NCBI RefSeq assembly: GCF_013391475.1
Contig: NZ_JACBAZ010000002.1
Span: 186,001 to 250,000, forward strand
Direction: 5' to 3'
Source: Oceaniferula marina
GTDB lineage: Bacteria > Verrucomicrobiota > Verrucomicrobiia > Verrucomicrobiales > Akkermansiaceae
Length of the DNA: 64,000 nt
The translations under genes and the position numbers were made by a program. The notes below the pieces were generated by a model. The model saw only the letters and a program-made list of their open reading frames with translations, did not search any database and was not told the origin of the DNA. Of the stretch, positions 30,241 through 61,774 are shown piece by piece; the stretch's first letter is position 1; every line of letters begins with the position of its first letter.

Positions 30241-30260
30241 TTATAAAATGATGCCTTTTT

Positions 30261-30284
30261 GCCCGAACGTTAGCAAAAAACATT
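30261..30284 (-). promoter_or_regulatory. Candidate sigma-module promoter element (upstream of sigma 29698-30240)
   Basis: On the minus strand this reads AATGTTTTTTGCTAACGTTC and continues GGGC, resembling the stretch at 27160-27182 upstream of another sigma gene. The common core is TG(T/C)TAACGTT. It is close to the ATG (about 21 bp) and its role is a guess. Confidence 0.25.
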
Positions 30285-30312
30285 AAAAACTTCAGAATGC
30301 TCGCATTGCGGA

Positions 30313-30348
30313 CAAAAAAAACCGGCTGACGCAGGAGCGCCAACCGGT
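30313..30348 (-). terminator. Terminator left over from a deleted PEP-CTERM gene
   Basis: The hairpin ACCGG(C)TG(A)CGC / GCG(C)CA(A)CCGGT is followed on the minus strand by seven T, the same form as the terminators after PEP-CTERM genes. It is now fused to the truncated sigma gene at 30350-30640, which marks the far edge of a module-sized deletion. Confidence 0.75.
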
Positions 30349-30349
30349 G

Positions 30350-30640
30350 GATGAATGGTGGTGTTTATTCGCTCGAAACTGGGATTCCACCATGTTGCGG
30401 GCCATGGTAAAGATCCGGGCATGGAAATTGCTGCTTTTTTCGAAGTCGTGCATTTTTTCCCTGATGACGACGTTGGTATTTTGCAGGACGCCTTCGGCAC
30501 CGTCGGATCCCGGTATCAGCGAGACGATACAAGCACGTAGAGCTGATTGATGCTCCAACAGCCGCTTAATGAACGTGTTAATTTCAGGTGGGTGGAGGTC
30601 AGGCCTAGTAAGGAATGAATCCTCAATCGTTTTCTCAACA
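30350..30640 (-). pseudogene. Truncated ECF sigma factor gene (region 2 only)
   Basis: The frame reads HPPEINTFIKRLLEHQSALR, IVSLIPGSDGAEGVLQNTNV and then ARIFTMARNMVESQFRANK. It aligns residue by residue with the first half of the sigma factor at 35807-36346 (HPPEINTFIKLLLEHQSALR...). The start codon of that relative is not conserved here (CTGACC in place of ATGGCT), and everything after region 2 is missing, replaced by a terminator hairpin. Even the upstream bases (30641-30658) resemble those of the intact gene. It is thus the stub of a former module. Confidence 0.85.
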
Positions 30641-30662
30641 AAAAGATGAGAAAAAAGTGAAC

Positions 30663-30719
30663 TTACTTCCTGCGGCGCAGGATTAAGGAGAAAACACCCA
30701 GACCGAGAAGAGCTGACGG
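30663..30719 (-). pseudogene. Orphan PEP-CTERM tail
   Basis: The minus strand encodes PSALLGLGVFSLILRRRK and a TAA stop, a clear PEP-CTERM end, with a TGA stop immediately before the Pro and no upstream gene in that frame. It lies about 85 bp beyond the stop of sulfatase 30805-33279, in a different frame from it. Together with the in-frame tail at 12907-12987 it shows that PEP-CTERM tails have been left behind next to sulfatase genes twice. Confidence 0.85.
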
Positions 30720-30804
30720 TCATCTGATCTGAAGGTTTCCCCAGGCAAGCGTGGTTGGGGCTGTCTTGGAAGAGAGCAGTAATATTCGAGCGCTACTGAG
30801 AAGA

Positions 30805-33279: not shown

Positions 33280-33321
33280 CACTATGATGGCTGTTAGTTT
33301 GATGCTAACTTTGCTGATTTC

Positions 33322-33365
33322 CAAAAAAAACCTCCCTACAGCTAAATTCTACAGCCGCAGGGAGG
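33322..33365 (-). terminator. Intrinsic terminator after PEP-CTERM gene 33381-34190
   Basis: The stem CCTCCCT / AGGGAGG encloses a 21-base loop with some internal pairing and is followed by eight T on the minus strand. It separates the sigma/FecR/PEP genes from the sulfatase. Confidence 0.8.
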
Positions 33366-33380
33366 ATAGAGGGTTTATGT

Positions 33381-34190
33381 TTACTTGCGACGACGCAAGA
33401 TCAGAGTAACTCCACCAAGGCCGAGAAGAGCTGCGGAAGATGGTTCTGGGACGGAGGCAATCGACACATTATCGATCAGGGTCTGTCCATTAGTAGCGTC
33501 TCCGACAGTGGTGAATACCAGCCACACATTGGTATTCGCTCCAGCAGAGTTAAAGGTGTCAAGCGTGACAGACTGGCTGGCAAGATAAACACTTTCACCT
33601 CCTCCCGTAGACATTATATCACCTGTGTTTGTCACCAATCCGCTTGCCTCACTTGCATCGAAAGTTACAGAGGCCAATTCAGTAACCCATCCGGCCGTAC
33701 CTGCGGTTCCTGCAAACACGCTGACACGCACATCATTGATAAGGCTTTGAGAACTAGCAGCGCGAGCCGTCAAATCGAATGTTACTGTCATAGCAGTAAG
33801 GTCACCGATCAATCCAATATTCTGGCCCAGTTGCGCTGAATTGCCACTGGTTAACGTGCCTCCCTCAATAACAGCCCAAGTATCGAGCCCAGAGGAATTA
33901 GGAGTGTTACCGCGATAGCTGCCAAGTGCTGAAACTTTATTAGCTGAACCGTTGAGAACACCATCCCAACGGTTGATCGTGCCTTCACTGGATACTGTCA
34001 TTTCGTCATCCAATATCCCATTATTATCGCCGTTAACAGATGTATCGTCAACAGTCACAGTGCCTCCGCTACCGGTGACATCTTCAAATCCACCATTTGC
34101 CAGCACTAAAGCGCCCTGTGAAATGCTGATTGATGATGCCATCACGATGGCTGGGAATAGTAACTCTTTTTTCATCGTCTTATTTTTCAT
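33381..34190 (-). CDS. PEP-CTERM sorting-domain protein (269 aa)
   Basis: The ATG at 34190 has AGGA seven bases upstream on the minus strand and is preferred over the ATG at 34196. A signal peptide (LLFPAIVMASSISISQGA) precedes a sandwich ectodomain of about 210 residues beginning LVLANGGFEDVTGSG and ending NVWLVFTTVGDATNGQTLID, then VPEPSSAALLGLGGVTLILRRRK. The same domain is attached to the C-terminus of the next gene's sulfatase, with conserved NDV(R/K)VS, LVTN(T/V)GD, SVYL, VWLVF(T/S)T and QTLID. This implies the anchored protein and the enzyme share a ligand or bind one another. Confidence 0.9.
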   Translation of the reverse strand: MKNKTMKKELLFPAIVMASSISISQGALVLANGGFEDVTGSGGTVTVDDTSVNGDNNGILDDEMTVSSEGTINRWDGVLNGSANKVSALGSYRGNTPNSSGLDTWAVIEGGTLTSGNSAQLGQNIGLIGDLTAMTVTFDLTARAASSQSLINDVRVSVFAGTAGTAGWVTELASVTFDASEASGLVTNTGDIMSTGGGESVYLASQSVTLDTFNSAGANTNVWLVFTTVGDATNGQTLIDNVSIASVPEPSSAALLGLGGVTLILRRRK

Positions 34191-34250
34191 GATCATATCC
34201 TATTATTCGTTGTTGGTTGCGTTTTTTCTAATCCTATGCACATCCATTTT

Positions 34251-35810
34251 CTATTTGAGAGAGTTGGTGTGCATAAGCCGAAGAATTGATTTCTCAGACA
34301 GTGTGCCTTCGAAGATATAGAGCTCATCAATTTGTATTTTAAAATCCTTCTTAGGATTCACCCCGTCAGCATTATGTCCGATCGCTACGGGTGAAGCATT
34401 AGGATCCAAGGTGTTAATGACACTGTTGGGGATAGATTGTGGATAGTCAGCGCTGAGCGGCTCCTTTTTGCCATCGATAAACAAAGTGGTTTCTGGAACG
34501 CCATCCTCAGTTGAACGGTAAGAACACGCAATATGGTGCCATTGGCCATCACAAACATTTGAACCTCCAACCAAGTAACCTGTGCCAATAATTTGAACCT
34601 TTCCTCGGCCTGTATGACTCTCATCGCCTGAGATATTGATCGTCCATCGTTCCAGATCCTGATAAGACTTTAAACTTGATTTTCTATCCAAATCAAAACG
34701 ACCCCATGTCACTATACCTGATACTCCGCCTGAGGGAATCCGTTCACTACGGTACCAAAATGCGATGGTCCTAGGGCGGTCACCCGCAATTCCAGGGTAT
34801 CCTGTAAGTAATGATTTTCCCACAAGAGGTTCGATAGATAATGCTGATTCAAATCTTCCTTCCCCGAGCATCGTCAAAGCCTTGGTATCATTTTTGATCG
34901 GACGAGCTGAAGGATCTGACAGGCAATGAATGGTTCCTTCAGCTGGGAAAGCAAGATCTTCGATTTCGTCAAATGACCAGTGTAGGTAGGGTAGGGATTT
35001 GGGGAGTTTGTTCGCAAATTGATTGTTTGCGCTAGGAATGGTGCTGAGGCGGCCAATCGGGTCGATGCGGCGCGCTTGGCCGGCCGTGAGGGTGGCGGAT
35101 TCTTTGCGGATGCGTAGAGTGGTCACCTGGACCTTTCCCTTGAGCACGTGGACTTCATCGTGATCGTTTGTTTTTGCCAGCACGCCGAACTCGGTGCCGA
35201 GGTCGACGATGTTGAGGTCTCTGGTTTTCACTTGGAACCCTTCAGCCCCTTTGGGAACATGGAACCAGCCGGTGCCTTCACCGAGGTAGAGTCGGTCATT
35301 GGCATGCAGGGTGAGGTCGGCAGGAGCGGTGATGATGGATTTGACTCCGGAGGCAAAGTTGAGCTCGATGGCTCCCTGGCTGAGTTGGAGGCGTGAGCCG
35401 GGATGCATCGTCTGGCCGTTGGACTGATCTTCCGCGCCATCGTGGGTGATGGTGAAGAGCGTGCCCGGGGAGGTTTGGAAGGCGAGTGAGGGTGGCGTTT
35501 CAGGGTCGACAAAAAACAGGCGCATCAGGACTGCGGAGAGCACCAGAATGGCAGCGGCCGAGATCAGGGCGATTTTGATGGTTTTATTTTTTTGCCGTTT
35601 CAGAACGCGTTCCATGGGGACGACGTTGGTTTGCGGTAGGGTGGTGGTTTTTGCCTGACTGAGCAGGCTGTGCATCTCAGCGAGTTCGACGTAGTATTCG
35701 ACTGATTCCCGGTTGGCCAAAAGCTCCTGCTTGAGCCGGGTGAGTTCGGACTCGGAGATGGTGTGATCGAGCCAGGCTTCGATCAGGGAGGTGAGCTCTT
35801 CCTGGTTCAT
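34251..35810 (-). CDS. FecR-domain/LamG-domain membrane protein, candidate anti-sigma/sensor (519 aa)
   Basis: The cytoplasmic part (MNQEELTSLIEAWLDHTISE..LLANRESVEYYVELAEMHSL) is followed by a membrane helix (IALISAAAILVLSAVLMRLFF). The FecR barrel includes NIVDLGTEFGVLAKTNDHDE, and the LamG domain shows RTIAFWYRSERIPSGGVSGI, HHIACSYRSTEDGVPETTLF and IQIDELYIFEGTL. The middle third is nearly identical in DNA to copies 25030 and 28084, including an 84-bp stretch without mismatch (35145-35228). The start overlaps the sigma stop as ATGA (35807-35810). LamG has no catalytic residues; its role is presumably to bind an extracellular polysaccharide. Confidence 0.9.
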   Translation of the reverse strand: MNQEELTSLIEAWLDHTISESELTRLKQELLANRESVEYYVELAEMHSLLSQAKTTTLPQTNVVPMERVLKRQKNKTIKIALISAAAILVLSAVLMRLFFVDPETPPSLAFQTSPGTLFTITHDGAEDQSNGQTMHPGSRLQLSQGAIELNFASGVKSIITAPADLTLHANDRLYLGEGTGWFHVPKGAEGFQVKTRDLNIVDLGTEFGVLAKTNDHDEVHVLKGKVQVTTLRIRKESATLTAGQARRIDPIGRLSTIPSANNQFANKLPKSLPYLHWSFDEIEDLAFPAEGTIHCLSDPSARPIKNDTKALTMLGEGRFESALSIEPLVGKSLLTGYPGIAGDRPRTIAFWYRSERIPSGGVSGIVTWGRFDLDRKSSLKSYQDLERWTINISGDESHTGRGKVQIIGTGYLVGGSNVCDGQWHHIACSYRSTEDGVPETTLFIDGKKEPLSADYPQSIPNSVINTLDPNASPVAIGHNADGVNPKKDFKIQIDELYIFEGTLSEKSILRLMHTNSLK

Positions 35811-36346
35811 TGGACATCTCCTTCCAGCAGCAGACGTTTGTGGACGCAGTTACGTAACTTTGCTCGCACGCGGGAGAGTGCGGTGCGCAGGGAGTCGGGG
35901 GACCGCTTGATACGTTTGGCGTGTTGTTCGAGGGTTTTGCCCTTCGAGTACCTGACTTCGATCAGGTCGCGGTCGCTGGGTTTGAGTTTTTCCAGGCAGC
36001 GATCGAGTGCGCGTTGTCTGAGAGTGGTCTCCTTTTCCGGCCGCTGGTTCCAGACCTGGTCGATCGCCTGGATGAGCTCATCATCCATCGAGGGTGAATG
36101 GTGGCGTTTATTCGCTCGGAACTGGGATTTCACCATGTTGCGGGCAATGGCAAAGATCCACGCCTGAAAGTTACTTCCATCCTCGAAGCTGTTCATCTTC
36201 TCCCAGATGACGACATTCGTATTCTGGAGAACGTCTTCGGCATCGTCAGAGCCCGGCATGAGGGAGACGATATAGGCACGCAGAGCCGACTGGTGCTCCA
36301 GCAGCAGCTTAATAAACGTGTTGATTTCCGGTGGGTGAGAAGCCAT
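35807..36346 (-). CDS. ECF-type RNA polymerase sigma factor (179 aa)
   Basis: Region 2 reads MPGSDDAEDVLQNTNVVIWEKM with FQAWIFAIARNMVKSQFRANKRH, and region 4 reads LKPSDRDLIEVRYSKGKTLE and DSLRTALSRVRAKLRNCVHK. The frame extends upstream to a TTG at 36370, but the ATG at 36346 gives the start shared with its truncated relative at 30350-30640. The bases before both (TCATCTTTTTTGTTTAGAAAA here, allowing for small changes in the relative) are also alike and may hold the promoter. The stop overlaps the FecR/LamG start by four bases. Confidence 0.88.
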   Translation of the reverse strand: MASHPPEINTFIKLLLEHQSALRAYIVSLMPGSDDAEDVLQNTNVVIWEKMNSFEDGSNFQAWIFAIARNMVKSQFRANKRHHSPSMDDELIQAIDQVWNQRPEKETTLRQRALDRCLEKLKPSDRDLIEVRYSKGKTLEQHAKRIKRSPDSLRTALSRVRAKLRNCVHKRLLLEGDVQ

Positions 36347-36434
36347 GCCTACTAAGGTATGGATTCCCAATCACTTTTCTAAACAAAAAAGATGATAAAA
36401 AAAGCGTGGCTTCTGATTTAGGGCGCGTGGCGGG

Positions 36435-37442
36435 TCACGGTTTCAAGGGGATGATCAGGCAGCGGCCATGGTTGTAGCCTTTCCCTTTTCTGCGGGTGGA
36501 GAGGCAGAGTGCTTTGGCTTGCCCATCCTCGATGTAGAGAAAGGGACGTTCGATGCTACCGACGGTGATGGCTTTTCCGTCAGGAGATGGGAACGATTTT
36601 CCGGTGACCTTGGAGTGCTGGGCTTTGTCCCATTGGATGCCATCGGTAGAAGTGATCAGCCCGATGTAATGATGAGCATGAAAAATGGCGTAGTAGCGCT
36701 TGCGCTTGGTATCATACCAAAGGGATGCATCTTCGGTATCCATACCGGAAATCGCGGGTTGGGGCTGGATGCTGAACGGTCCGGTCGGGGTGGGGGAGGT
36801 AGCCAGGCCTTGGATGCGCTGCGGCATCGCTTGTTCAGGAGTTTTGGCTTTGATGTCCCCTTTGAGAATCATCAGATAGGAGCCATCCGGGCGTTGGGTG
36901 ACGCCGGGGTTGACGGTGATGTTGAAGACGGGCTTGGCGGGTTCGACAATCGCCTGCGTGGAGGGAACAAACGGCCCGGTAATTGATGTTGAGGTGGCGA
37001 CACCAATACGCTGGCTATCCCGGATGTGATTGCGGGATTTGCCGGGTCGGCTGGAGATAAAGTAGAGGTGCCAGGTGTCACCAAACTTTTTTAGTTTGGG
37101 GTTGTGTGCCATCAGTTCGTTCCAGTGTCCCTTGCCAGAGCCCTTGAGCAGGACCTTGAGGTGCCGGTAGGGTCCTGCCAGATCATCTGCTTGGGCGATG
37201 GCGATTTCAGATGTCGTGAGCCAGTCACCACCCTTGGTTTTCCAGCGGGAGTAGATCAGATAATAGCTGTCCCCTTCTTTGACGATGTGGCCACCCCAGG
37301 TGGCGTAACCTTCTTCTTCAAAGAAATTCGCCTGAGTAATCGGCTCGAGCTTGTCAGCGAGTTTGAGATTATCCGTTGTTTGACTCCAAGCAAGTGGTTG
37401 GAGCAGTAACACCGAAAGGAGGATGAACAAGGATCGGGTCAT
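36435..37442 (-). CDS. Secreted GH43/GH117-like five-bladed propeller glycosidase (335 aa)
   Basis: A signal peptide (SLFILLSVLLLQPLAWS) precedes blade motifs TWGGHIVKEGDSYYLIYSRW, AHNPKLKKFGDTWHLYFISS, NPGVTQRPDGSYLMILKGD and TEDASLWYDTKRKRYYAIFH. These correspond one by one to those of the 18745-19869 protein, so the two are paralogues placed at the end of different modules. Central acidic residues suited to catalysis are present in the second and fourth motifs, but the exact family (GH43, GH117 or a relative) cannot be decided by eye. It follows the SASA esterase and sulfatase of the 36-46 kb module and may act on the product after those groups are removed. Confidence 0.75.
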   Translation of the reverse strand: MTRSLFILLSVLLLQPLAWSQTTDNLKLADKLEPITQANFFEEEGYATWGGHIVKEGDSYYLIYSRWKTKGGDWLTTSEIAIAQADDLAGPYRHLKVLLKGSGKGHWNELMAHNPKLKKFGDTWHLYFISSRPGKSRNHIRDSQRIGVATSTSITGPFVPSTQAIVEPAKPVFNITVNPGVTQRPDGSYLMILKGDIKAKTPEQAMPQRIQGLATSPTPTGPFSIQPQPAISGMDTEDASLWYDTKRKRYYAIFHAHHYIGLITSTDGIQWDKAQHSKVTGKSFPSPDGKAITVGSIERPFLYIEDGQAKALCLSTRRKGKGYNHGRCLIIPLKP

Positions 37443-37512: not shown

Positions 37513-40263
37513 TTACTTGAGCACGACTTGATAGAAATGTTGGGCAGAGCTTGAGTGTGGCAGCGTGTAGGAGGTTTGAGATCCGACTGCTGCAGCCGCG
37601 ATATCATCGGCGACAATGTGGGACCAGTCGATGAGGTCGGTGCTGGACCGGATGGTGAAACGGGCCGTTGGGCTGGATGGCCAGGTGAGTTGGAGTGCAC
37701 CATCTCCGAGAAGGGTTTGTTCCTGTTTGAAGTAGCTGTTGAGATCGAGCGGATCCGTTCCGATTTTGGCTTCCCCTCCATCATTGATGTTATCGCCGTC
37801 GGTGTTGTCGTTGTCCGGATTGGTTTCGCCAGGGTCGACCAGGCCATTTTGATTTTTATCCTCTGTGAGGTCCGGGATGCCATCCTGATCGACATCAACG
37901 GCAGGGAGGTTAGGCAGAGCCGGAGGGACGGCCTGGTTGGTGTTTTTATTGACCGAATACTGGGCGCCCATGGCGTCAAGCTGTTGCCGGAGGTGGCGGA
38001 CCATGCTCATCAATCGTTCCGGGTGGCTGGCGGCCACGTTGTTTGATTCACCGATGTCATTGGCGAGGTTGTAGAGGGATGTGCTTCCATTGCTGTACTG
38101 GTGGATGATTTTCCAGTCGCCCTGACGCATGAGCGCAAAGTGGTCATGATTGTGCCCATGTGGGAAATGTTGGATGAACTCCTGCGGTCGGTGGGTTCCC
38201 GGAGTGGCACGGAAGTAGGGACTCAGATCGTGGCCATCGACCGGGTGGCTGTAGCTGGCTCCTGCGATGCTGGCGACCGTGGCAAACATATCTTCACAGG
38301 AAACGATATCATCCTCCCGGCTTCCGGCCGGAATGCTGAGCTGGGATTGGAATGGGTTGTTGGCATCGGGTTTTGCCCATGAGGCGATCATGGGTACGCG
38401 GATGCCACCTTCCCAATACTGTCCTTTTTTACCACGTAAGATGGGGTTGGCTGCATCACTACCGTTATCGGAATAAAAAATGACGATGGTATTTTCGGCG
38501 ACGCCGAGTTGTTCGAGATTCGTCAGAATATCCCCCAGGGATTTATCCATGCCTTCGATCAGGGTGGCGTAGGCGAGGGCGTTACCGCTGAGGCTGGGGT
38601 AGTTGGCTGTAAACCGGCTGTCTGCCTGCCAAGGAACGTGAACAGCATAATGTGCCATGTAGGCAAAAAAGGGAACGCCATCGCTGACGGACGCTGTGAT
38701 CGCTTTGTTCATTTCCAGCGTGAGGGCTTCGGAGAGGAAGGTGTCGGTGCCGTGGTATTGTTCGAGTCCCGGGACATGCCAGATGCCGGTGCCGTAATTG
38801 TTGGTGCCGAGGTAGGACCCGGGCCCTCCGGCTCCATGACCGGCGATGTTGATATCAAAGCCAATCGCTTGTGGATTACCGGCAAAGGAACTGTTGGTGC
38901 CGAAGTGGGCTTTACCGGCGTGGATGGTTCGGTAGCCGGTTTCCTGAAGGAGTTTGGGCAAGGCGATGTCACTGGGCTTCATACCCGCCATATGCCAGTC
39001 GGACGGTGATTTGAGGTGGGCGATGTTGTTGCTCCCTGTGTCTTGGGGAGTGCTGGGGTGGGTCCAGGTGGTGACATGGTGGCGGGTGGCATTCATCCCG
39101 GTCATGATCGAGACTCTGGTGGGTGAACAGACGGAGCAGGCGTAGGCAGAGGTGAACTTCATCCCCTGGGTCGCCAGCCGTTCCATGTTAGGGGTGATGC
39201 GGAGCTTGTTGGTTTGGTTGGCCGACGGCTGCGGGTCGCCTGAAGCATCATAATGAAAAGGAACCGAGGTGTCCTGCCAGCCCATGTCATCAACGAGGAA
39301 AAAAAGGATATTTGGTTTGGGAAGACCCACTCCCATCCTCAGGGTGGCGGTCGTGCTGCCACCTGTGTTACTTGCTGTCAGGGTGTAGGTGGTGGTGGAT
39401 GTGGCAGAACTCGACGTGTTGCCATCACCATCTGTGGAGAGGGAGGTAACGTCACCGATTTGCGGGGTGATGGAGATTGATGTTGCACCAGTGGTTTGCC
39501 AGCTGAGGTTGAAGGCTGTGCCGGGAGTGACGTAATAGTCGTTGGCGGAAAAGGATTCAATGCTTGGAGGAAAAACGTGGTCGTTACTGACAATTTGAAT
39601 GCCGTTCACGGCGGCGCGACCCACGCTGGAATCCATGGCGAGGGTGAAACTGCGGCTCGTGACATTTTCAAAAACGGCGAAGTTGGCATAGTTTCCGGCT
39701 CCCGTGGTCTGGACGAAGGTGCCGGAGTAGGTGCCGGAATCGTCACCGGCTTTAACCATGGCCTGGGATTCGAGGGGAGTCAGGGTGAGGGTGTGGCTGC
39801 GGTTGGATGAGTCCGTATCAAAATAGACATAGACTCGGTACCCTGGAGAGGTGAATGTGGAGTCCAGCCCGTTGATTTGCAGACCGCCACCGTCTGAGGG
39901 TTTGAAGGCGAGGTAGGAGTTCATTAGGCTACGGCTGCTGGCGCTGCCCTCTCCCTGGCTGGCTCCCGAGTAGCCGACGTAGGCGGAATTCAAGCTGGAG
40001 ATAAAGGTGGCAGCGGAGCTGTTCCCTTGGTCATCTTTGACGCTGAGGTTGCGTTGCGCCGCGGCACCGGATAGATCACCATTGTTGAACCCGATGTTAT
40101 TCCAGTGTTGGGCTGCGATCGGGATGTTGCCCGCTGCGTCTCCATTGATGATTTGGTTACTCTCTGTCGAACCAGCGTTGTTAAACAGATTGATGTTGAT
40201 GGTTTTGGCATCCACCGAGGATGCAAGGGTGCAGAGAAAAAGCAGACAAGTGATAGGTTTCAC
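37513..40263 (-). CDS. Multidomain S1-family sulfatase (916 aa)
   Basis: After the signal peptide, residues 20-226 form the sandwich domain seen in the neighbouring PEP-CTERM protein and SASA esterase (ININLFNNAGSTESNQIING...PGYRVYVYFDTDSSNRSHTL...AAVNGIQIV). Residues 232-311 are an Ig-like linker (FNLSWQTTGATSI, YTLTASNTGGSTT). The sulfatase core runs from PNILFFLVDDMGWQDTSVPF (about 316) with CSPTRVSIMTG (Cys379), HYAVHVPWQ and VIFYSDNGSD. Residues about 795-850 are a calcium-type thrombospondin-3-like repeat (DVDQDGIPDLTEDKNQNGLV, NTDGDNINDGGEAKIGTDPL), and the last 65 residues are a beta module (FTIRSSTDLIDWSHIV). It lies 18 bp behind the SASA gene. It should desulfate an extracellular glycan; the attached domains probably hold it to its substrate. 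Confidence 0.9.
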   Translation of the reverse strand: MKPITCLLFLCTLASSVDAKTININLFNNAGSTESNQIINGDAAGNIPIAAQHWNNIGFNNGDLSGAAAQRNLSVKDDQGNSSAATFISSLNSAYVGYSGASQGEGSASSRSLMNSYLAFKPSDGGGLQINGLDSTFTSPGYRVYVYFDTDSSNRSHTLTLTPLESQAMVKAGDDSGTYSGTFVQTTGAGNYANFAVFENVTSRSFTLAMDSSVGRAAVNGIQIVSNDHVFPPSIESFSANDYYVTPGTAFNLSWQTTGATSISITPQIGDVTSLSTDGDGNTSSSATSTTTYTLTASNTGGSTTATLRMGVGLPKPNILFFLVDDMGWQDTSVPFHYDASGDPQPSANQTNKLRITPNMERLATQGMKFTSAYACSVCSPTRVSIMTGMNATRHHVTTWTHPSTPQDTGSNNIAHLKSPSDWHMAGMKPSDIALPKLLQETGYRTIHAGKAHFGTNSSFAGNPQAIGFDINIAGHGAGGPGSYLGTNNYGTGIWHVPGLEQYHGTDTFLSEALTLEMNKAITASVSDGVPFFAYMAHYAVHVPWQADSRFTANYPSLSGNALAYATLIEGMDKSLGDILTNLEQLGVAENTIVIFYSDNGSDAANPILRGKKGQYWEGGIRVPMIASWAKPDANNPFQSQLSIPAGSREDDIVSCEDMFATVASIAGASYSHPVDGHDLSPYFRATPGTHRPQEFIQHFPHGHNHDHFALMRQGDWKIIHQYSNGSTSLYNLANDIGESNNVAASHPERLMSMVRHLRQQLDAMGAQYSVNKNTNQAVPPALPNLPAVDVDQDGIPDLTEDKNQNGLVDPGETNPDNDNTDGDNINDGGEAKIGTDPLDLNSYFKQEQTLLGDGALQLTWPSSPTARFTIRSSTDLIDWSHIVADDIAAAAVGSQTSYTLPHSSSAQHFYQVVLK

Positions 40264-40281
40264 GGGAAATAAATGGTTAGA

Positions 40282-43188
40282 TTACGGTGTGATGAGTAAG
40301 CGAAGGAAGGTGCGTTGTGTGCTGGGGGCAGACAAACTCCAAGGTGAGCGGTAATGAAGTGTGGCGGTGCCGTCACCATGATGGATGGAGCGGATAAAGA
40401 CAGGTGCTTCCTCATCATTCCAGTGGATCAGATCCTGGGACACCTGGGGGGTGGCTTGTGTTCCCAGTGCATTCAGATTGCGTTGGAAGGCAAGGGTGAG
40501 GTAATCCTTTCCGTCAATGGTTTCGAGCTGACCGCTGGGCAAGGCGAGGTCCATGGCATTTGTAGGATGAGAGCCAAGGTAGAATTCCGAGATGTTGTCC
40601 AAGCCGTCGAGATCGTCGTCATCGGTGGCTGATCCGATGAGACTGTGGCCGGCTGACCATTCGGTGTAGCTGAGCGGTGTGAGTTTAAACATTTTGTATG
40701 CCATCCCTTTCCCAAGGGCGAGTTGTGCCGTGGCATTGAGGTGGACTTCATCGGTGTCTTTGAATCCGTCGACTTCTTGTTCGTGACTTGGATGGTCGGT
40801 GCTATTGGTGGGCACGGTGGCGGTGTTATTTTTAGCCAGAGCTGCTCCGGAATCTTCATCCAGCTCGAGTTCCGCTTGACGCACGAGCTCGCGGCCGGGG
40901 AATCGGGTGTCCACATCGCCGCCGGCAGGTGCGTATGGAAGGACCTGACCTAGCACAAAGCGGATGCCGTCCGGTGAGGCATGATTTGCAAATTGTTCCC
41001 GGATGCGATCGATAAAATGAGAGAGGTTGGCTCCGTAGTCGTCGGCACTGGTGTTGGACTCGGGTACGTTTAAACCATCCTTTGCGTCCTGCTCACCTTG
41101 TTGCCAGCACATCCCTTTGATGACCGGTTGCCAGCCATCGGTTTCGAGTGCGGCGATTCCGTTGTTGAAGGTGTTGACCATGGCGGTGAATGATCCGCCC
41201 CAGTTGCCGGTGTCTGTGGCATTGGCTCCGGGTTTGAAGTTGATTTCCAGGCTGTTGCCACTGGCAGCGTATTTGATCAGAGCGATGTTCCGTCCCGGGC
41301 AAAGGTCGCGGAGTCGTTCACCGAAACCCATTTCCGGTCCGAAGGTGCTGCCGTTGGCGGGTTGGAGGCCGACCCATTTGTTGGCGATCGATCCGGACAC
41401 ACCTGAGCCTGCGGCGTAGAGCATGATTTCGGGTATACTGAGTAGTTCGGCTGACAGCTTGTAGCTCCGTGCCGTCCCTTGCATGTTCGACTGTCCACTC
41501 AAGAGGTAGACATCGATGGGGCCTTTGCTCAGAGTGGCGGATGTCTGGGCGGTGATGATGGTGTTCCCGCGGGTAGCGGTTAAAGTCCAAGTGGTGCTGG
41601 CTGTGGGAGTGAGGATACTGCTGCCAGTACTGGATACCGATCCTACCCCTTGATCAATGGTTACCGAATCCGCATCGGTCACGTTCCAATGGAGAGTCAC
41701 GGATTCGCCTGCGGTAAAGGAGCTGGGAGTGGCAGTGAAGGATACAATGTTGGCGGAGGGTTCGGTTTGAGCCACAATTTGTAAGCCGCTCAAGGTGGCC
41801 CGACCGGAGGTGGCATCTCCGGATATTGTGAGGGTATTGCCGGTGAAGGTTCCAAACTCGGCGTAGTTGGCATCCGTGACTGCCGATGTTGATGATGTGG
41901 CGGTGCTTGGAATCCAGCCGATGACGCCATCGTTGTCGGTATCTGCATCGGTTCCTGAAGTGTCCTCCGTCCAGAATGTCTGGTTGCTGGTTCCATCGGT
42001 CATACTGATGGCGTAGGTTCGGGTGGCAGAGCCGATATCAAATACCGCATAGACCTTGTAGCCATGGGGTGCCCAGGAGGCTAGGCCGTCGAGTGTGATG
42101 CTTTCCGAGCTATTCAGATTGAGAAAGCTTTGCATGAGCCCACCGTCACCTGTGTTCGATTGGTTAGGTGAGCTGCTGTTGGCAAAGTTAGAGTAGAATG
42201 ATCCGCTTGATGTCATGTCAACACCTGCATCAGCACCGGAGGAATCGTTGAGATTGATGTGGTTGGCGCCTTGGGTCGCGGCAGTGAAGGTGCTTGGTGC
42301 TCCTGCCCCTGATGCCCGGAGATTGATGTTGTTCCATTTGGATCCGTCGGTGGTTTGAGATCCTGGCATGCCCACGATGGAGGACTCACCGGCATCGACG
42401 GCGTTGGCGTCATTGAGTGCGATACCAAAGTTTACGCTGATACTTGCGGGAATGGGGACAATTTGAAAACCGCAGATCGGAGCGCGGTTGGTATCGGCAC
42501 CCGAGATGGTCAGGGTGTCACCGGTGAAAGTTCCGAAGGCAGCATAGTTGGCATCAGTGATCGCGGTTGCTGATGTAGTTGCAGTCGACTCGATCCAGTT
42601 GATTACACCGTCGTTATCTGTATCAGAATCTGATCCTGCGGTGTCGGCTGTAAAGTAAGATTGAGAAGTTAATCCATCACTGACAGTAAAGCCGTAGGTG
42701 CGGGTGAAGGGGCCGATATCGAAGTAGAGATAAACTCGGTAACCGTGAGGCGCCCATGTGGATAGTCCGCTGAGGGAAATGGACTCCGAGTTGTTCGCGA
42801 GAGTGTAACTTTGCATCAACGCTCCGTCGCCTGATGCGGAGGCATTGGCTCCACTTGCATTGGCGTAATTGGCGTAGAAGGCCCCGCTGGATACCATATC
42901 GACCCCTGAATCAGCACCGGAAGTATCATTGAGGTCAATGTGATTGCCGTTTTGGCTCGCTGCGGTGAAGAGGCCTGGTGCGCCTTGTCCGGATGATCGG
43001 AGGGGGATATGATTCCACAATGATCCGTCATGGGTTTGTCCGCCGGGGATCCCTACGCTTGCCTTTTCTCCTGTGTCAATCGTGTTGGCATCGTCTGAGC
43101 CAATCGCAAGGTTGACATTGATCGTGTTGGCAAATGATGTAACTGCCAGAAACGGAAGCAGGATTGCTAACAAAGTTCGGATCTTCAT
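40282..43188 (-). CDS. Multidomain secreted SASA-type carbohydrate esterase (968 aa)
   Basis: Two tandem copies of one sandwich domain occupy residues 20-250 and 255-480. Each has the order ..VDAGE..G.PG.QT.DGS.WN..., SGAD(S/A)GVDM.SSG.FY.N.AN, GLA/STWAPHGY(R/K)VY and ANYA.FGTFTG(D/N)TLTISG. The same domain is the ectodomain of the adjacent PEP-CTERM protein. An Ig-like linker (WNVTDADSVTIDQGVG) leads to a SASA esterase (about 565-830): DVYLLSGQSNMQG with the nucleophile Ser, GMCWQQGEQDAKDG, and DEVHLNATAQ with the Asp-x-x-His pair. SASA enzymes remove O-acetyl groups from sugars. A C-terminal DDDLDGLDNISEFYLGSHPT block and beta module follow. In the 53-58 kb locus esterase and sulfatase are fused in one protein; here they are adjacent genes. 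Confidence 0.88.
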   Translation of the reverse strand: MKIRTLLAILLPFLAVTSFANTINVNLAIGSDDANTIDTGEKASVGIPGGQTHDGSLWNHIPLRSSGQGAPGLFTAASQNGNHIDLNDTSGADSGVDMVSSGAFYANYANASGANASASGDGALMQSYTLANNSESISLSGLSTWAPHGYRVYLYFDIGPFTRTYGFTVSDGLTSQSYFTADTAGSDSDTDNDGVINWIESTATTSATAITDANYAAFGTFTGDTLTISGADTNRAPICGFQIVPIPASISVNFGIALNDANAVDAGESSIVGMPGSQTTDGSKWNNINLRASGAGAPSTFTAATQGANHINLNDSSGADAGVDMTSSGSFYSNFANSSSPNQSNTGDGGLMQSFLNLNSSESITLDGLASWAPHGYKVYAVFDIGSATRTYAISMTDGTSNQTFWTEDTSGTDADTDNDGVIGWIPSTATSSTSAVTDANYAEFGTFTGNTLTISGDATSGRATLSGLQIVAQTEPSANIVSFTATPSSFTAGESVTLHWNVTDADSVTIDQGVGSVSSTGSSILTPTASTTWTLTATRGNTIITAQTSATLSKGPIDVYLLSGQSNMQGTARSYKLSAELLSIPEIMLYAAGSGVSGSIANKWVGLQPANGSTFGPEMGFGERLRDLCPGRNIALIKYAASGNSLEINFKPGANATDTGNWGGSFTAMVNTFNNGIAALETDGWQPVIKGMCWQQGEQDAKDGLNVPESNTSADDYGANLSHFIDRIREQFANHASPDGIRFVLGQVLPYAPAGGDVDTRFPGRELVRQAELELDEDSGAALAKNNTATVPTNSTDHPSHEQEVDGFKDTDEVHLNATAQLALGKGMAYKMFKLTPLSYTEWSAGHSLIGSATDDDDLDGLDNISEFYLGSHPTNAMDLALPSGQLETIDGKDYLTLAFQRNLNALGTQATPQVSQDLIHWNDEEAPVFIRSIHHGDGTATLHYRSPWSLSAPSTQRTFLRLLITP

Positions 43189-43209
43189 GGTGGAAATAAT
43201 GTTTGGTAA

Positions 43210-43244
43210 GAAAAACCTGACGGGATAATGGCTCCCGTCAGGTT
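43210..43244 (-). terminator. Intrinsic terminator after PEP-CTERM gene 43283-44095
   Basis: The stem AACCTGACGGG / CCCGTCAGGTT with a nine-base loop is followed on the minus strand by TTTTTCTT. It lies about 40 bp after the PEP-CTERM stop and just before the SASA esterase gene. Confidence 0.85.
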
Positions 43245-43282
43245 GTTGTTGAAATCAATGGATGTGTTTAATGCATGCTTGA

Positions 43283-44095
43283 TTATTTTCTCCGGTGGAG
43301 GATCAGGGCAAGTCCGCCGAGGCCTAGCAGGGCAGCGGAGGATGGCTCGGGGACCGCGACGATTTGAAAGCCGCTGAGGACGGCTCGTCCGCCATTATTG
43401 GTTCCAGAGATGGTGAGGGTGTCACCAGTGAAGGTGCCGAAGGAGGCGTAGTTGGCGTTGGTAACCGCGGATCCCGATGTGGTGGAGGTGGTCCCGAGCC
43501 AGTCGATGATCCCATCGTTGTTGGTATCACTGTCCGTCGAATTATCCGCAGTCCAGTAAAGCTCGAGCGCTCCTCCATCGTTCATCGAGATACCGTAGGT
43601 CCGGGTTAGCCCGCCGATGTCAAAGACGGCAAAGGCTTTGTAGCCATTGGGGGCCCATGTGGATAATCCGGTGAGGGAGATGGTTTCCGTGTCGTTGAGG
43701 TTGAGGTAGCCTTGCAGCAATCCTCCATCACCGGTTGCGCCCTGATTTGGGCTGCTGGCGTTGGCGTAGTTCGTATAGAAGGTGCCGGAAGAGGTCATGT
43801 TGACGCCGGAGGAGGCTCCGCTGGAGTCGATCAGCGCTATGCTGGCACCTCCTTGGGTTGAGGTTCTGAAGGTTCCCGGGTCGCCTGGGTCGCCTGCCAA
43901 GCGGGTGGAAATATTGTTCCAGTTTGAGCCGTCAACGGCCTCCGTTCCGCTGAGGCCTACGAGGGCCGTTTCGCCGGCATCGACTCGTTGGTTGTCAACA
44001 GTGGCGCTGACCGAAAAGTTGACGCTGATCGATGCCGCCTGAGTGGTTGCGCTTAAGCCGACCAGAAGGGCAATGCTTGTACTTTGTTTTATCAT
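43283..44095 (-). CDS. PEP-CTERM sorting-domain protein (270 aa)
   Basis: The frame opens with TTG at 44137; the ATG at 44095 (MIKQSTSIALLVGLSATTQA) gives a normal signal peptide and is used. The ectodomain (about 20-250) reads SISVNFSVSATVDNQRVDAG...SGASSGVNMTSSGTFYTNYA...LSTWAPNGYKAFAVFDIGGL...NYASFGTFTGDTLTISG. This is the same domain that occurs twice in the SASA esterase downstream and, more distantly, once in the following sulfatase. The C-terminal signal is VPEPSSAALLGLGGLALILHRRK, with His in place of the first Arg. It clearly illustrates the surface protein and enzymes of one locus sharing a binding-type domain. Confidence 0.9.
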   Translation of the reverse strand: MIKQSTSIALLVGLSATTQAASISVNFSVSATVDNQRVDAGETALVGLSGTEAVDGSNWNNISTRLAGDPGDPGTFRTSTQGGASIALIDSSGASSGVNMTSSGTFYTNYANASSPNQGATGDGGLLQGYLNLNDTETISLTGLSTWAPNGYKAFAVFDIGGLTRTYGISMNDGGALELYWTADNSTDSDTNNDGIIDWLGTTSTTSGSAVTNANYASFGTFTGDTLTISGTNNGGRAVLSGFQIVAVPEPSSAALLGLGGLALILHRRK

Positions 44096-44161
44096 GTGTT
44101 TCTGTTTTTGTTGTTTTTCAATGTTGGAGGATTCCAATAAAGATAGAAAAGGGTGTGAATA

Positions 44162-45739
44162 TTACGGTTGGTGGGTTTCCATGATTTGTTGGATGGATGC
44201 GGGGGTTAGGGTGGCCCGGTAAATAAACAGCTCATCGATGAGTCCATGAAAACGAGCCTGATATTGAGCCGATGACTGGCGGTGGTTGATGCCCAGGATC
44301 ATGGGGAGCCCTTCTTCGGTTTTCCGTGTGTGAACGATTTGGGATGATTTCTGGTGGATCGCCGGTTCGTCTTGTCCGTCGACATAAAACCTGATGTCAG
44401 GGGTGCCCTGTTCGTTCAGATCGCCGGTGTCGACCACGGCGACATGGTGCCACTTGCCATCGGCGAGGTTGGTATTGCCATCATACCAACTTTGTCCCAA
44501 ACCAAGTCTGAGCACGGCTCGTTTGGGATCGCCTTCAGCTTTGGTGACCCGGAACCTCCAGTAGCGGTTGCTCGTCATTTTCCCCCATTCGACAATGGGA
44601 GCCCAACCGTGGGGGTCGTTCGGATGAAGTTTGATCCAGCATGCGACCGAGCGAGGTTGGCGTCCAAGGATTCCCGGCCAATTGGTCAGTAGCCGGTCTC
44701 CCTTGCCGTTGAACGAAAGTGCCTTACCGTGTTTTCCGGGCACTAATCTCTCGTTGGCTTCACGGGAATCATTTTGGACAGGCTTGGCAGTGATGGTCTC
44801 CCTTCCGGACAGTGACCCTTGCGGCAAAAACGGATGGTCTCCATCAAACGACCAGTGCAGATGGGGTAATGATTTCGGGAGCGTGGTATGGAAGGTTCGG
44901 GCTGCCACGGGGATGGTATTCAGGCGCCCGACGGGGTCGATACGGCGCGCTTGGCCGGCAGTGAGTGTGTCCGACTCCTTGCGGACGCGCAGGGCGGTGA
45001 CCTGAACCTTTCCTTTCAGGACATGGACCTCATCGTGGTCGTTGGTTTTGGCCAGCACGCCAAATTCAGTTCCGAGATCAATGATGTTGAGGTCCCGGGT
45101 GGTGACTTGGAAGCCTTCCGCTCCCTTGGGAACGTGGAACCAGGCATGGCCTTGACCGAGGTAGAGTTGATCATCCGCGTGCAGGGTGAGATCCGCCGGC
45201 GCGGTGATGACGGATGTGACTCCGGAGGAGAAGGTCAGTTCGATGGCTCCCTGACTGAGTTGAAGTCGTGAGCCGGGGTGCATGGTTTGTCCCTCGGTTT
45301 GGTCTCCTGTGCTTGTGTGGCTTGAATCATGGGTGATGGTGAAGAGGCTTCCGGGGGAAGTTTGGAAAGCGAGCGACGGTGCTTGTTCCGAGTCGACAAA
45401 AAACAGCCGCATCAGCGCCAGAGAGAGCAGCAGAATGGCGGCAGCTGAGACCAGGGCAATCTTGAGGGATCTTTTTTTCTGGTCTCGCAGCAGTTCGTCG
45501 ATGCTTTGGACTCGTTGGTCGAGGATGTTCGTGTCCTGCTCCCGTTCAAGCGGATGCTGTCGGGATGCCCAGCGGTGCAGTGCTGCGTGGATGCGTACCT
45601 GTTCGAGGTAATATTTCCGGGCTTCGGGGTTGTTTTGCAGGATGAGGTCGAGTTCATGCATTCCCTGCTCATTGATGGATTCATCGATGAGCTGGCGTAT
45701 CCTTGTATTGAGGAGGGTATTTTTTTCCGGTGGGAGCAT
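44162..45739 (-). CDS. FecR-domain/LamG-domain membrane protein, candidate anti-sigma/sensor (525 aa)
   Basis: The cytoplasmic N-terminus (NTRIRQLIDESINEQGMHEL..LQNNPEARKYYLEQVRIH) is about 95 residues, then a membrane helix (IALVSAAAILLLSLALMRLFF). The FecR barrel includes NIIDLGTEFGVLAKTNDHDE and VHVLKGKVQV; compared with other copies it has a small Ser/Thr insertion after ITHD (SSHTSTGDQTEG). The LamG domain shows RSVACWIKLHPNDPHGWAPI, HHVAVVDTGDLNEQGTPDIR and GLIDELFIYRATL. The DNA is more diverged from the three near-identical copies but the same mosaic of constant middle and variable ends is visible. The start is three bases beyond the sigma stop. Confidence 0.9.
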   Translation of the reverse strand: MLPPEKNTLLNTRIRQLIDESINEQGMHELDLILQNNPEARKYYLEQVRIHAALHRWASRQHPLEREQDTNILDQRVQSIDELLRDQKKRSLKIALVSAAAILLLSLALMRLFFVDSEQAPSLAFQTSPGSLFTITHDSSHTSTGDQTEGQTMHPGSRLQLSQGAIELTFSSGVTSVITAPADLTLHADDQLYLGQGHAWFHVPKGAEGFQVTTRDLNIIDLGTEFGVLAKTNDHDEVHVLKGKVQVTALRVRKESDTLTAGQARRIDPVGRLNTIPVAARTFHTTLPKSLPHLHWSFDGDHPFLPQGSLSGRETITAKPVQNDSREANERLVPGKHGKALSFNGKGDRLLTNWPGILGRQPRSVACWIKLHPNDPHGWAPIVEWGKMTSNRYWRFRVTKAEGDPKRAVLRLGLGQSWYDGNTNLADGKWHHVAVVDTGDLNEQGTPDIRFYVDGQDEPAIHQKSSQIVHTRKTEEGLPMILGINHRQSSAQYQARFHGLIDELFIYRATLTPASIQQIMETHQP

Positions 45740-45742
45740 GAG

Positions 45743-46288
45743 CTATTTCAATGTGGTCGGGGCGCTTGTTTTGATTTGCACGCATTGTTTCAGTTTGTTG
45801 CGAATCAGGTAGAGTGCCTGGGAAATCGATGAGGCCGGGCGGTCCAGTTGTTCAGCCATAGAGTGGACGCTGATGTCATCGAAGTAGCGGGCCTTGACCA
45901 GCGCCTGTTGCTTCGGCGTGAGCAGGGCGATACACTCGGCGAGTGATTGTTCCCTCTGGTTCGGGAGGTAGACCTGACTCTGCTCGGATTCCTGGGCGAG
46001 TAGCTCCATGGTTTTTCGACTGAAGACCAGTCGGTCGCGAGAGGCATCCCGGCTGGCGGCGCGGACTTGGTTCCATGCAATGCCACGGGCCCAGGGGAGA
46101 AATGGGCGGGATAAGTCGTATTCCGATGCCTTACGCCAGAGCACGAGGTTGGTTTCCTGTAGGATGTCGTCTGCCAGTGTGGCGTCCTGAATCAGGGCAA
46201 AAATATAGTCGTGTAGCACCACCTGATGTTTAGAAATCAGGCCGATCATACGCTCCTCGGCGTCTGCTGCTATCGGTGGATTGGGCAT
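45743..46288 (-). CDS. ECF-type RNA polymerase sigma factor (181 aa)
   Basis: Region 2 reads IQDATLADDILQETNLVLWRKASEYD and FLPWARGIAWNQVRAASRDA; region 4 reads LTPKQQALVKARYFDDISVHSMA and SSISQALYLIRNKLKQCVQIK. The linker between them is slightly longer than in some paralogues. It precedes its FecR/LamG partner by three bases. Upstream (46289-46407) no promoter could be recognised with confidence; the sulfatase gene ending at 46408 is about 120 bp away and belongs to the preceding group. Confidence 0.87.
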   Translation of the reverse strand: MPNPPIAADAEERMIGLISKHQVVLHDYIFALIQDATLADDILQETNLVLWRKASEYDLSRPFLPWARGIAWNQVRAASRDASRDRLVFSRKTMELLAQESEQSQVYLPNQREQSLAECIALLTPKQQALVKARYFDDISVHSMAEQLDRPASSISQALYLIRNKLKQCVQIKTSAPTTLK

Positions 46289-46407: not shown

Positions 46408-47922
46408 TTACGGTTGTTGCTTCGGCAGGGTGAAGGGGTCTTCTTTTGGTGGTTTGGTGGCGTGGGTCGGCCACTGGGCGCCATGCGTTTTCAGGGCAGC
46501 TTGCATGTTGAGGGCCATTTGCATGACTCGCTCTGGTTGCTTGGCAGCCAGGTTGTTTTTTTCTCCGATGTCTTTGGTCAGGTGGTATAGCTCGTAGCTG
46601 TCATCGGCAAAATTGTAGATCAGTTTGTAGTCGCCTTCGTGGTAGGTGGTGAAGTAATCCGACCGGTGGTCGTGGGGGAAGTGGATCAAGAGTTGCTGGG
46701 GGCGGTGGTGGCCGGGTTTTCCGGAGAGGTAGGGGCTGAGGTCGTGGCCGTCGATGTTTTGGCGCGGGTTGATTCCGGCGACCTTTGAAATCGTCGGGAA
46801 GAGGTCGAAGCAGGTGACGAGATCGTTGGTGCTGCTGTTGGCCGGGATTGGCAGTGCTTGTTGCAGTTTGTTTTCTGAATTGGGTTTTGCCCAGGATGCA
46901 ATCATCGGCACACGGATGCCGCCTTCGTATTTGTCTCCCTTTTGAGCCCGGAGCGGAGCACTGAGCATCGGGGAGTCGCTGCCGTTGTCCGAGATGAAGA
47001 TAACGAGGGTGTTTTCTGCGACACCGAGCTCATCCAGGTGGGCGAGGATATCGCCGAGTGACTTGTCCATGCCTTCGATCATGGTGGCAAAGGCGAGAGA
47101 GTCACCTTTGAGCGATGGGTAGTTTTTGGTGAAGCGGGGATCCGGGTCAAAGGGGAAGTGGACCGCGTAGTGAGCCATGTAGGCAAAAAACGGTTGTTTG
47201 TCTTTTACCGATTGGGTGATGGCCTTGTTTATTTCCAGGGTGAGAGCCTCGGTGAGAAAGATGTCTTTGCCATGGTAGGCATCGAGGTGGGGAACCTGAT
47301 ACAGCCCTTTGCCGAAGTTTTTGGTGCCGTAGTAGCTGCCCGGGTGGCCGGTTTCCTTACCGGCAATATTGACATCGAAGCCGAAGCTGAGCGGATTTTT
47401 ATTGGTATCGATGTTGCCAAAGTGGGCTTTGCCGGCGTGGATCGTTCGGTAGCCGGCATGGTTGAGCAGGCGGGGCAGTGGAGGCTCGGAGGTATCGAGG
47501 CCGCCACGTTGCCAGTTGCTGGGGGAGTTGTGAGATTTGGTCGTGTTGTTGCCGGTTTCGCCGTTTGGGTAGGGGCTGGTCCAGTTGGTGACGTGATGGC
47601 GGGCTGAGTTCAGGCCGGTCATCAAACAGACCCGGGTGGGGGAGCAGACGGGCATGGCATAGGCCCGGGTGAACTTGATTCCTGACTCGGTCAGTGACTT
47701 CATGTTCGGAGTGCGGAACAGTCGGTTGAGTGGTGTGGTGATATTGTTGCCATGGGCATCGATGGTGAAGGGAACCGAGGTGTCCTGGATCCCCATGTCA
47801 TCAACGACAAAAAGCAGGATGTTGGCTTTGCTGGCAGTGGCGCTGGCTGCGGAGGATGATAGGGTAGCGAGACCTGTCAAACAGATCAGGCTAAGGTGGA
47901 GAATGAGTCGGAGACGGAGCAT
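46408..47922 (-). CDS. Secreted S1-family sulfatase (504 aa)
   Basis: A signal peptide (LRLILHLSLICLTGLATLSS) leads to ANILLFVVDDMGIQDTSVPFT, formylglycine motif CSPTRVCLMTG (Cys93), GYRTIHAGKAHFGN, NIAGKETGHPGSYYGTKNFG, HYAVHFPFDPDPRF, VIFISDNGSD and a C-terminal ELYHLTKDIGEKNNLAAKQP. It is a close in-window relative of the sulfatases at 22758, 37513 and 61772, all of which share the DTSVPF block, but has no extra domains. It sits at the end of the group that includes the GH20 enzyme and another sulfatase. Confidence 0.9.
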   Translation of the reverse strand: MLRLRLILHLSLICLTGLATLSSSAASATASKANILLFVVDDMGIQDTSVPFTIDAHGNNITTPLNRLFRTPNMKSLTESGIKFTRAYAMPVCSPTRVCLMTGLNSARHHVTNWTSPYPNGETGNNTTKSHNSPSNWQRGGLDTSEPPLPRLLNHAGYRTIHAGKAHFGNIDTNKNPLSFGFDVNIAGKETGHPGSYYGTKNFGKGLYQVPHLDAYHGKDIFLTEALTLEINKAITQSVKDKQPFFAYMAHYAVHFPFDPDPRFTKNYPSLKGDSLAFATMIEGMDKSLGDILAHLDELGVAENTLVIFISDNGSDSPMLSAPLRAQKGDKYEGGIRVPMIASWAKPNSENKLQQALPIPANSSTNDLVTCFDLFPTISKVAGINPRQNIDGHDLSPYLSGKPGHHRPQQLLIHFPHDHRSDYFTTYHEGDYKLIYNFADDSYELYHLTKDIGEKNNLAAKQPERVMQMALNMQAALKTHGAQWPTHATKPPKEDPFTLPKQQP

Positions 47923-61735: not shown

Positions 61736-61774
61736 AAAAAAAAATGATCAAGGCCCGTGTCGGGCTCCAGATCA
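61736..61774 (-). terminator. Intrinsic terminator overlapping the stop of the truncated sulfatase
   Basis: GATC-TGG-AGCCCG-ACA-CGGGC-CTT-GATC folds into a hairpin that begins in the TGA stop of the 61772 gene and is followed by nine T on the minus strand. It insulates the sigma gene at 61092-61679 from upstream transcription. Confidence 0.85.

Follow-up and report, generated by a model that had tools for sequence, protein, structure and literature searches.

Domain sharing between a PEP-CTERM protein and its neighbouring enzymes in Oceaniferula marina, and similar pairs in other sigma/FecR cassettes of the genome

A stretch of 64,000 nucleotides from the genome of Oceaniferula marina (assembly GCF_013391475.1, contig NZ_JACBAZ010000002.1, forward-strand positions 186,001 to 250,000; here called the window, with coordinates counted from its first letter) carries a locus in which a PEP-CTERM protein has a domain in common with the two enzymes encoded directly after it. 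Such pairing of a PEP-CTERM ectodomain with a homologue in another protein recurs in this genome; the partners lie close to each other far more often than shuffled gene orders allow, and the pairs are old. We put at about even the chances that the locus belongs to a group of matched-module cassettes, in which a surface protein and an enzyme grip the same glycan.

The genes of the locus lie on the minus strand and in order of transcription encode an extracytoplasmic function (ECF) sigma factor (45743-46288; TIGR02989, 144.6 bits, cut-off 124.55), a FecR-like membrane protein with a C-terminal LamG domain (44162-45739; PF04773, PF13385), the PEP-CTERM protein (43283-44095), a SASA-type esterase of 968 residues (40282-43188; PF03629, E-value 1.3e-20), a sulfatase of 916 residues (37513-40263; PF00884, E-value 8e-43) and a GH43-like protein (36435-37442). 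The PEP-CTERM gene completes a trio with the sigma and FecR genes, and its product possesses one copy of the shared domain (copy A) and an exosortase-type tail that scores above the curated cut-offs of both PF07589 (24.1 bits, cut-off 20.7) and TIGR02595 (23.2 bits, cut-off 16). Its open reading frame (ORF) was listed from an upstream TTG at 44137, and the ATG at 44095 is the start used by an earlier, sequence-only reading of the window, whose placing of the PEP-CTERM, esterase and sulfatase genes is confirmed.

The shared domain is about 225 residues long. By alignment it is present once in the PEP-CTERM protein (copy A, 43352-44032, 227 residues), twice at the N-terminus of the esterase (B1, 42448-43125; B2, 41764-42444) and once at the N-terminus of the sulfatase (C, 39580-40203), all on the minus strand. 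BLASTP within the window matched the PEP-CTERM protein to the esterase with E-values of 5e-86 and 5e-61 and to the sulfatase with 4e-7, so that both this search and the alignment bear out the recurrence that the sequence-only reading had described. In alignment and tree, B2 is the copy closest to A (62% identical), B1 is 54% identical to A, and C is the diverged one, as had been claimed, with 26% identity and two of four motif blocks altered. Of the blocks said to recur, WN and GxQIV are found in all four copies, while the other two hold only in part: PHGY(R/K)VY is exact in B1 and B2, with PNGYKAF in A and SPGYRVY in C, and FGTFTG is present in A, B1 and B2, with FENVTS in its place in C. In both enzymes the domain is followed by an Ig-like linker, assigned by eye (41524-41763 between B2 and the esterase, 39328-39579 in the sulfatase, both minus strand), into which the BLASTP alignment of the two proteins extends, reaching residues 520 and 274 respectively.

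A profile built from the four copies and run against the whole 5.07 Mb genome returned these four places (E-value 1.4e-77 or lower) and then two weak ones (0.0155 and 0.134), with no fifth copy below 0.01. Within their own genome the four are thus closer to each other than to any other domain, and none of them groups with unrelated domains from elsewhere in it, the outcome that the sequence-only reading had named as refuting its view. Two of the extracellular players, the GH43-like protein and a sulfatase encoded upstream of the trio (46408-47922), were unmatched in this search, and the suggestion that all of them share the domain has to be dropped. More distant members can be reached with a second-round profile made from relatives, which found eight in the third of the genome that was sampled (see below), seven of them at PEP-CTERM places. 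Copy A has no Pfam family match up to an E-value of 1, and two of eight aligned members of the A-type domain show a weak match to Malectin_like (best E-value 0.0022).

A tree of 84 domain copies groups A with B1 and B2 (support 100/80), as does, weakly, one of 19 (80/37), their neighbours being an esterase of a related genome (G336) and then the PEP-CTERM protein of another (G143). This placement is most simply read as the outcome of local copying between esterase and PEP-CTERM protein. A clade of A and the G143 PEP-CTERM copy alone was rejected (p 0.02). Rejected too was a single clade of A, B1, B2 and C, and with it one local event for all four (p 1.3e-8, approximately unbiased test), while a grouping of C with N-terminal sulfatase domains of other genomes was not rejected (p 0.196); two of the groupings tested, this last one among them, were chosen in the light of the first tree. 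Copy C therefore probably arrived with its sulfatase. The local domain shuffling put forward by the sequence-only reading is accordingly retained for A, B1 and B2 and given up for C.

Trios of ECF sigma factor, FecR/LamG protein and PEP-CTERM protein recur in the genome. They were surveyed in a sample made up of 87 stretches around PEP-CTERM and sigma genes plus the window, amounting to 1.63 of 5.07 Mb or about a third of the genome, in which 1206 ORFs were called; 161 of these have a PEP-CTERM tail and there were 32 sigma and 29 FecR hits. A sigma gene lies directly upstream of 28 of the 29 FecR genes, a PEP-CTERM gene comes next in 24 cases, and 23 have both. PEP-CTERM tails number at least 150 in the whole genome, and for most of the PEP-CTERM proteins scanned the ectodomain has no match to a named family. 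The genome search returned one exosortase gene (TIGR02602, 118.3 bits, cut-off 105.55), and there are 145 sulfatase matches, some of which are two pieces of one gene.

The ectodomains in this sample show a marked preference for local partners. At an E-value below 1e-5, 17 of the 161 have a non-PEP homologue in the sample, and for 15 of the 17 it lies within five genes, the distance taken as local here; 2000 shuffles gave a mean of 0.18 local pairs and a maximum of 3. Three of the 15 have small partners (genes 129, 624 and 887, the ends of the last two resembling a degenerate PEP tail); when these are set aside, 12 PEP-CTERM proteins and 11 large partners remain. The partners include sulfatases (genes 305, 324 and 820), esterases (139, 210 and 311), a protein with a GH120 insertion domain (1149), one with Ig-like domains and a sub-threshold GH43 match (282), a GDPD protein (335), a CotH protein (249) and one without a catalytic match (1178). 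Where a larger partner exists (at least 1.8 times as long and 250 residues longer), 12 of 16 PEP-CTERM proteins have their best one locally, compared with 3 of 28 size-matched controls (p 2.7e-5), and two of these three controls (genes 320 and 599) are themselves degenerate-tail proteins. As a plain frequency, a local large match was seen for 12 of 149 PEP-CTERM proteins and for 5 of 348 small controls of all kinds (p 5e-4); two of the five control genes (window 58014-58646 and C3:289776, the latter given as contig and position) have degenerate PEP-like tails, which were noticed after the test. Chance similarity of low-complexity ectodomains is an unlikely cause, since the matches of the 12 PEP-CTERM proteins to their large local partners have phmmer E-values from 8e-10 to 2e-138, and the permutation and controls agree with them.

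The age of the pairs was estimated from 14 comparisons (Nei-Gojobori, own script), including one of B1 with B2 and one between two PEP-CTERM proteins. Protein identity ranges from 30 to 71% and the proportion of synonymous differences from 0.64 to 0.85; synonymous divergence (dS) is saturated in ten of the comparisons, and the ratio of nonsynonymous to synonymous divergence is 0.17-0.23 in the other four. Saturation at most silent sites shows that these are old pairs which have been retained. They are also confined: searches of the genome with four domain families placed A1 (E-value below 0.01), A4 and A6 (both 1e-5 or lower) each in one cassette and A5 in two adjoining cassettes, the exception being the more distant A-type members that are reached by the broader profile only.

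In the order to which Oceaniferula belongs the A-type domain has a patchy distribution, being present in 36 of 386 genomes (this one counted) and absent from all 11 further genomes listed for the genus. These 386 were drawn from a larger group, and no more than seven or eight candidates were scored per genome, so that the order-wide tallies of families are lower bounds. Stretches of related genomes were selected for holding the A-type domain and contain ten PEP-tailed A-type proteins, seven of which have a larger A-bearing neighbour (G109, G117, G221, G253, G321, G340 and G364). The PEP-CTERM copy is sister to its neighbour's copy in G109, G117 and G253, so such pairs seemingly arose more than once; this sister relationship does not hold in G221 and G340. 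Taken together, the PEP-tailed proteins of these stretches form 167 pairs, 13 of them local, where permutation gave a mean of 3.2 and a maximum of 10. There are also many domain-bearing enzymes in the relatives with no PEP-tailed copy nearby. Family A5 was found in six of the 386 genomes, own included, and by frame lengths only, G304 repeats the layout of the focal locus, with a 258-residue frame, an 861-residue frame with two copies and a 1235-residue frame with one. By the same measure G231 has a pair of 230 and 884 residues, G143 has a small and a large frame on different contigs, G317 a small frame only and G014 a fragment. Family A6 occurs in 19 genomes including its own, and A4 in its own alone.

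Alternatively, an enzyme domain may simply have been copied next door and have captured a PEP-CTERM tail, or the reverse, with adjacency a by-product of neutral tandem duplication. The local clade of A, B1 and B2 fits such an origin, as does the fact that nearly all trio pairs are immediate neighbours, and tandem copies on small proteins are common in family A6. However, most silent sites have reached saturation, and yet the pairs have stayed adjacent and have kept their protein identity. Among small non-PEP genes that have a larger homologue the local bias is lacking (the 3 of 28 given above), and in G221 and G340 the pair is conserved even though the PEP-CTERM copy and those of its neighbour are not sisters. 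We consider this origin unlikely.

What the domain might bind is suggested by its predicted fold. The model of copy A (predicted template modelling score, pTM, 0.77; predicted local distance difference test, pLDDT, 70.5) has as its best structural match 8x8h, the carbohydrate-binding domain of a putative pectate lyase (Z 9.9, root-mean-square deviation 2.9, 126 aligned residues). Other matches are the N-terminal domain of YxiM (Z 9.7), end domains of beta-glucuronidases (8.9) and the carbohydrate-binding modules (CBMs) CBM36 (7.4), CBM6 (6.7) and CBM35 (6.5). This likeness to carbohydrate-binding jelly rolls supports a glycan-binding role for copy A, and use of the shared domain as a targeting module, as the sequence-only reading proposed, is plausible from the model. 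Sequence searches for a known structure gave nothing convincing for A2 (best E-value 0.42) and none for A4, and no cohesin or dockerin Pfam match was found in the proteins scanned (E-value cut-offs 0.1, 0.01 and 0.1).

In the arrangement that we favour, genes for an ECF sigma factor and a FecR-like LamG membrane protein precede that of a PEP-CTERM surface protein, the next genes encode what appear to be secreted enzymes, many of them polysaccharide-active, and in a minority of cassettes the ectodomain of the surface protein is of the same kind as the accessory module of the enzyme. The PEP-CTERM copy would be displayed on the cell surface and the enzyme secreted, both copies binding one common and perhaps sulfated polysaccharide. 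The displayed copy would keep the substrate at the cell, while the copy on the enzyme would keep the enzyme on that substrate; the LamG domain may sense the substrate or its products, upon which the sigma factor would be released. A common ligand is preferred because of the fold and because enzymes of relatives bear the domain with no PEP-tailed copy nearby.

A number of observations weigh against this proposal. A match among the next three same-strand genes is present in only 7 of the 24 cassettes with FecR and PEP-CTERM genes, six of the matches being large proteins, and four of the 24 have no such downstream gene at all; pairing as a rule of every cassette is therefore rejected. Against crude-secreted controls the plain frequency of local large matches is not significant (12 of 149 versus 4 of 124, p 0.12). 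Some families are common to distant places, with five far pairs in the test on larger partners, and one profile round raised the total to 37 pairs, of which 17 are local (two of them new) and 20 far. The sample was moreover centred on PEP-CTERM genes, so that distant partners are under-sampled, a bias common to PEP-CTERM proteins and controls. Among relatives, the PEP-tailed A-type proteins of G143, G343 and G338 have no A-bearing neighbour (the last two lying on contigs of 3.8 and 7.4 kb), and in G317 an A5-type PEP-CTERM protein precedes an A-type sulfatase, a mismatched pair (L148, 16554-19898). In relatives, family A6 is for the most part carried on small frames, frequently in tandem; of 18 other genomes, two (G199 and G327) have a small frame clearly paired with a large one beside it, and G134 has a pair of 386 and 579 residues. 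As to the fold, a Z of 9.9 is little above the level that unrelated models reach, the second-ranked match is YxiM, proteins other than CBMs such as Cry toxins are among the matches, and Foldseek gave no E-value below 0.001 with the model. Since middling Z values are common and Cry toxins are in the list, the fold supports the glycan-binding reading without proving it.

It is also conceivable that the two copies bind each other, the PEP-CTERM protein being a private receptor for its enzyme and the domain family the address. Such homotypic docking would explain why three of the four families tested genome-wide are found in one cassette and the fourth in two adjoining ones, and a multivalent dock would fit the enzymes with two copies (SASA 40282, the L102 partner and G304). 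However, the fold is like that of glycan-binding jelly rolls, and many enzymes of relatives carry the domain with no PEP-tailed copy nearby. Docking is unlikely on these grounds, with the confinement of the tested families to one or two cassettes of their own genome speaking in its favour. A wider form of the idea is an address code, in which each matched cassette would have its own diverging domain family in an exosortase-sorted and an enzyme form, the two recognising only each other or a single ligand; the numerous enzyme systems of one cell would thereby be kept apart, each wired to its own sigma/FecR sensor. This too we regard as unlikely. Highly improbable is a decoy role, in which the PEP-CTERM protein would compete with the enzyme for ligand and report occupancy to FecR/LamG, the match setting the induction threshold: its gene directly follows FecR in 24 of 29 cases and LamG is a possible glycan-binding part, but contact between FecR and PEP-CTERM protein is without support and 17 of the 24 FecR and PEP-CTERM cassettes have no matched downstream gene.

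Further pairs are encoded in and beside the window, again on the minus strand. In a second cassette a PEP-CTERM protein (33381-34196, domain at about 33456-34127) matches a C-terminal domain (31045-31665) of a sulfatase (30805-33324; BLASTP E-value 2e-16), and across the 386 genomes this family was found in just these two places (E-value 1e-5 or lower). The model of its domain was too poor for a fold search (pLDDT 48.2, pTM 0.54). The FecR and sigma genes of this cassette occupy 34251-36370. The remains of a decayed cassette can be seen at 30250-30810, namely a sigma fragment resembling 35807-36370 and, read in a different frame, a segment similar to a PEP-CTERM tail. A third pair is formed by a protein with a degenerate PEP-like tail (58014-58646) and the middle domain of a protein that is esterase and sulfatase in one (53367-57977; BLASTP E-value 5e-7). 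The N-terminal domain of the latter (57321-57935) matches a PEP-CTERM protein just beyond the window (C2:250635). There is also a sulfatase (C2:247772-250669, in-window part 61772-64000) with an N-terminal domain that matches the neighbouring PEP-CTERM protein, encoded beyond the window. At the other end, two PEP-CTERM proteins (3029-3703 and 3785-4468) match the N-terminal domain of the next gene, which runs from 2935 past the left edge and has a Big_12 and a sub-threshold GH43 match.

Three features of these cassettes are worth mentioning. The FecR proteins of five of them (25030-26571, 28084-29679, 34251-35810, 44162-45739 and 59578-61134; that of the sixth, 4587-6185, was left out of the comparison) are 76-89% identical in their middle (columns 121-280), with 23-40% identity before column 121, 17-48% from column 321 and a 65% block between, and the middle region looks as if it had been homogenised by gene conversion. 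Degenerate PEP-CTERM-like tails were recognised by eye at 58014-58646 and, elsewhere in the genome, at C3:289776, C3:357102, C3:376933 and C5:105273; these have kept a glycine-containing hydrophobic stretch and lost the PEP motif and the arginine cluster. C3:289776 lies directly after a FecR gene and 58014-58646 after a trio, and both match the downstream enzyme. Finally, a C-terminal module of about 70 residues, often with an FFRVELE-like end, is present at 37513-37730, 53367-53580, 61772-61990 and other places. A model seeded from six of its proteins found it in 17 large proteins sampled, 16 of which have it as their extreme end and none of which has a PEP-CTERM tail. The module may be a further one for sorting or capping.

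Should some PEP-CTERM proteins be partners of adjoining enzymes, as the pairs hint by joining surface proteins of undefined job to degrading enzymes, the substrate of the enzyme would predict the ligand of the surface protein, gene by gene. A regulated surface system comparable to the Sus loci would also become testable in the phylum of O. marina, the Verrucomicrobiota, members of which are reported to consume sulfated sugars of algae (PMC8857213). Among open-licence texts of PubMed Central, no paper was found on PEP-CTERM proteins with sigma factor and FecR or on ECF sigma and FecR in Verrucomicrobi, and none, by title or opening of the abstract, on the pairing of domains between PEP-CTERM proteins and enzymes.

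Like the PEP-CTERM/exosortase proteins described earlier (Haft, 2006; PMC1569441), those of O. marina have a C-terminal PEP-CTERM tail, many diverse ectodomains and an exosortase gene in the genome. They differ from that account in that many occupy third place after a sigma and a FecR gene, and some have a domain in common with the next enzyme. The A-type domain has a predicted fold that resembles, at middling Z values, CBMs of the galactose-binding jelly-roll type (CBM6, CBM35 and CBM36), and like these it is positioned at the end of enzymes that are of a polysaccharide-active type by Pfam (SASA, sulfatase). However, it has no sequence match to a named CBM family, and a second copy is on a protein predicted to be sorted to the surface. 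In the polysaccharide utilisation loci of Bacteroidetes, surface glycan-binding proteins are encoded beside enzymes under the control of a sensor, the binder being a lipoprotein, and there is a SusC/SusD pair. The locus of O. marina likewise encodes a predicted surface binder beside enzymes that would be under sensor control, but the binder has an exosortase-type tail instead of being a lipoprotein, and its domain is the accessory domain of the enzyme. FecI/FecR signalling has an ECF sigma gene beside that of a FecR-domain membrane protein, together with a TonB-dependent transducer. The first arrangement is shared by 28 of the 29 FecR genes sampled here, while the fusion of FecR to LamG and the PEP-CTERM gene as third member set the O. 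marina trio apart.

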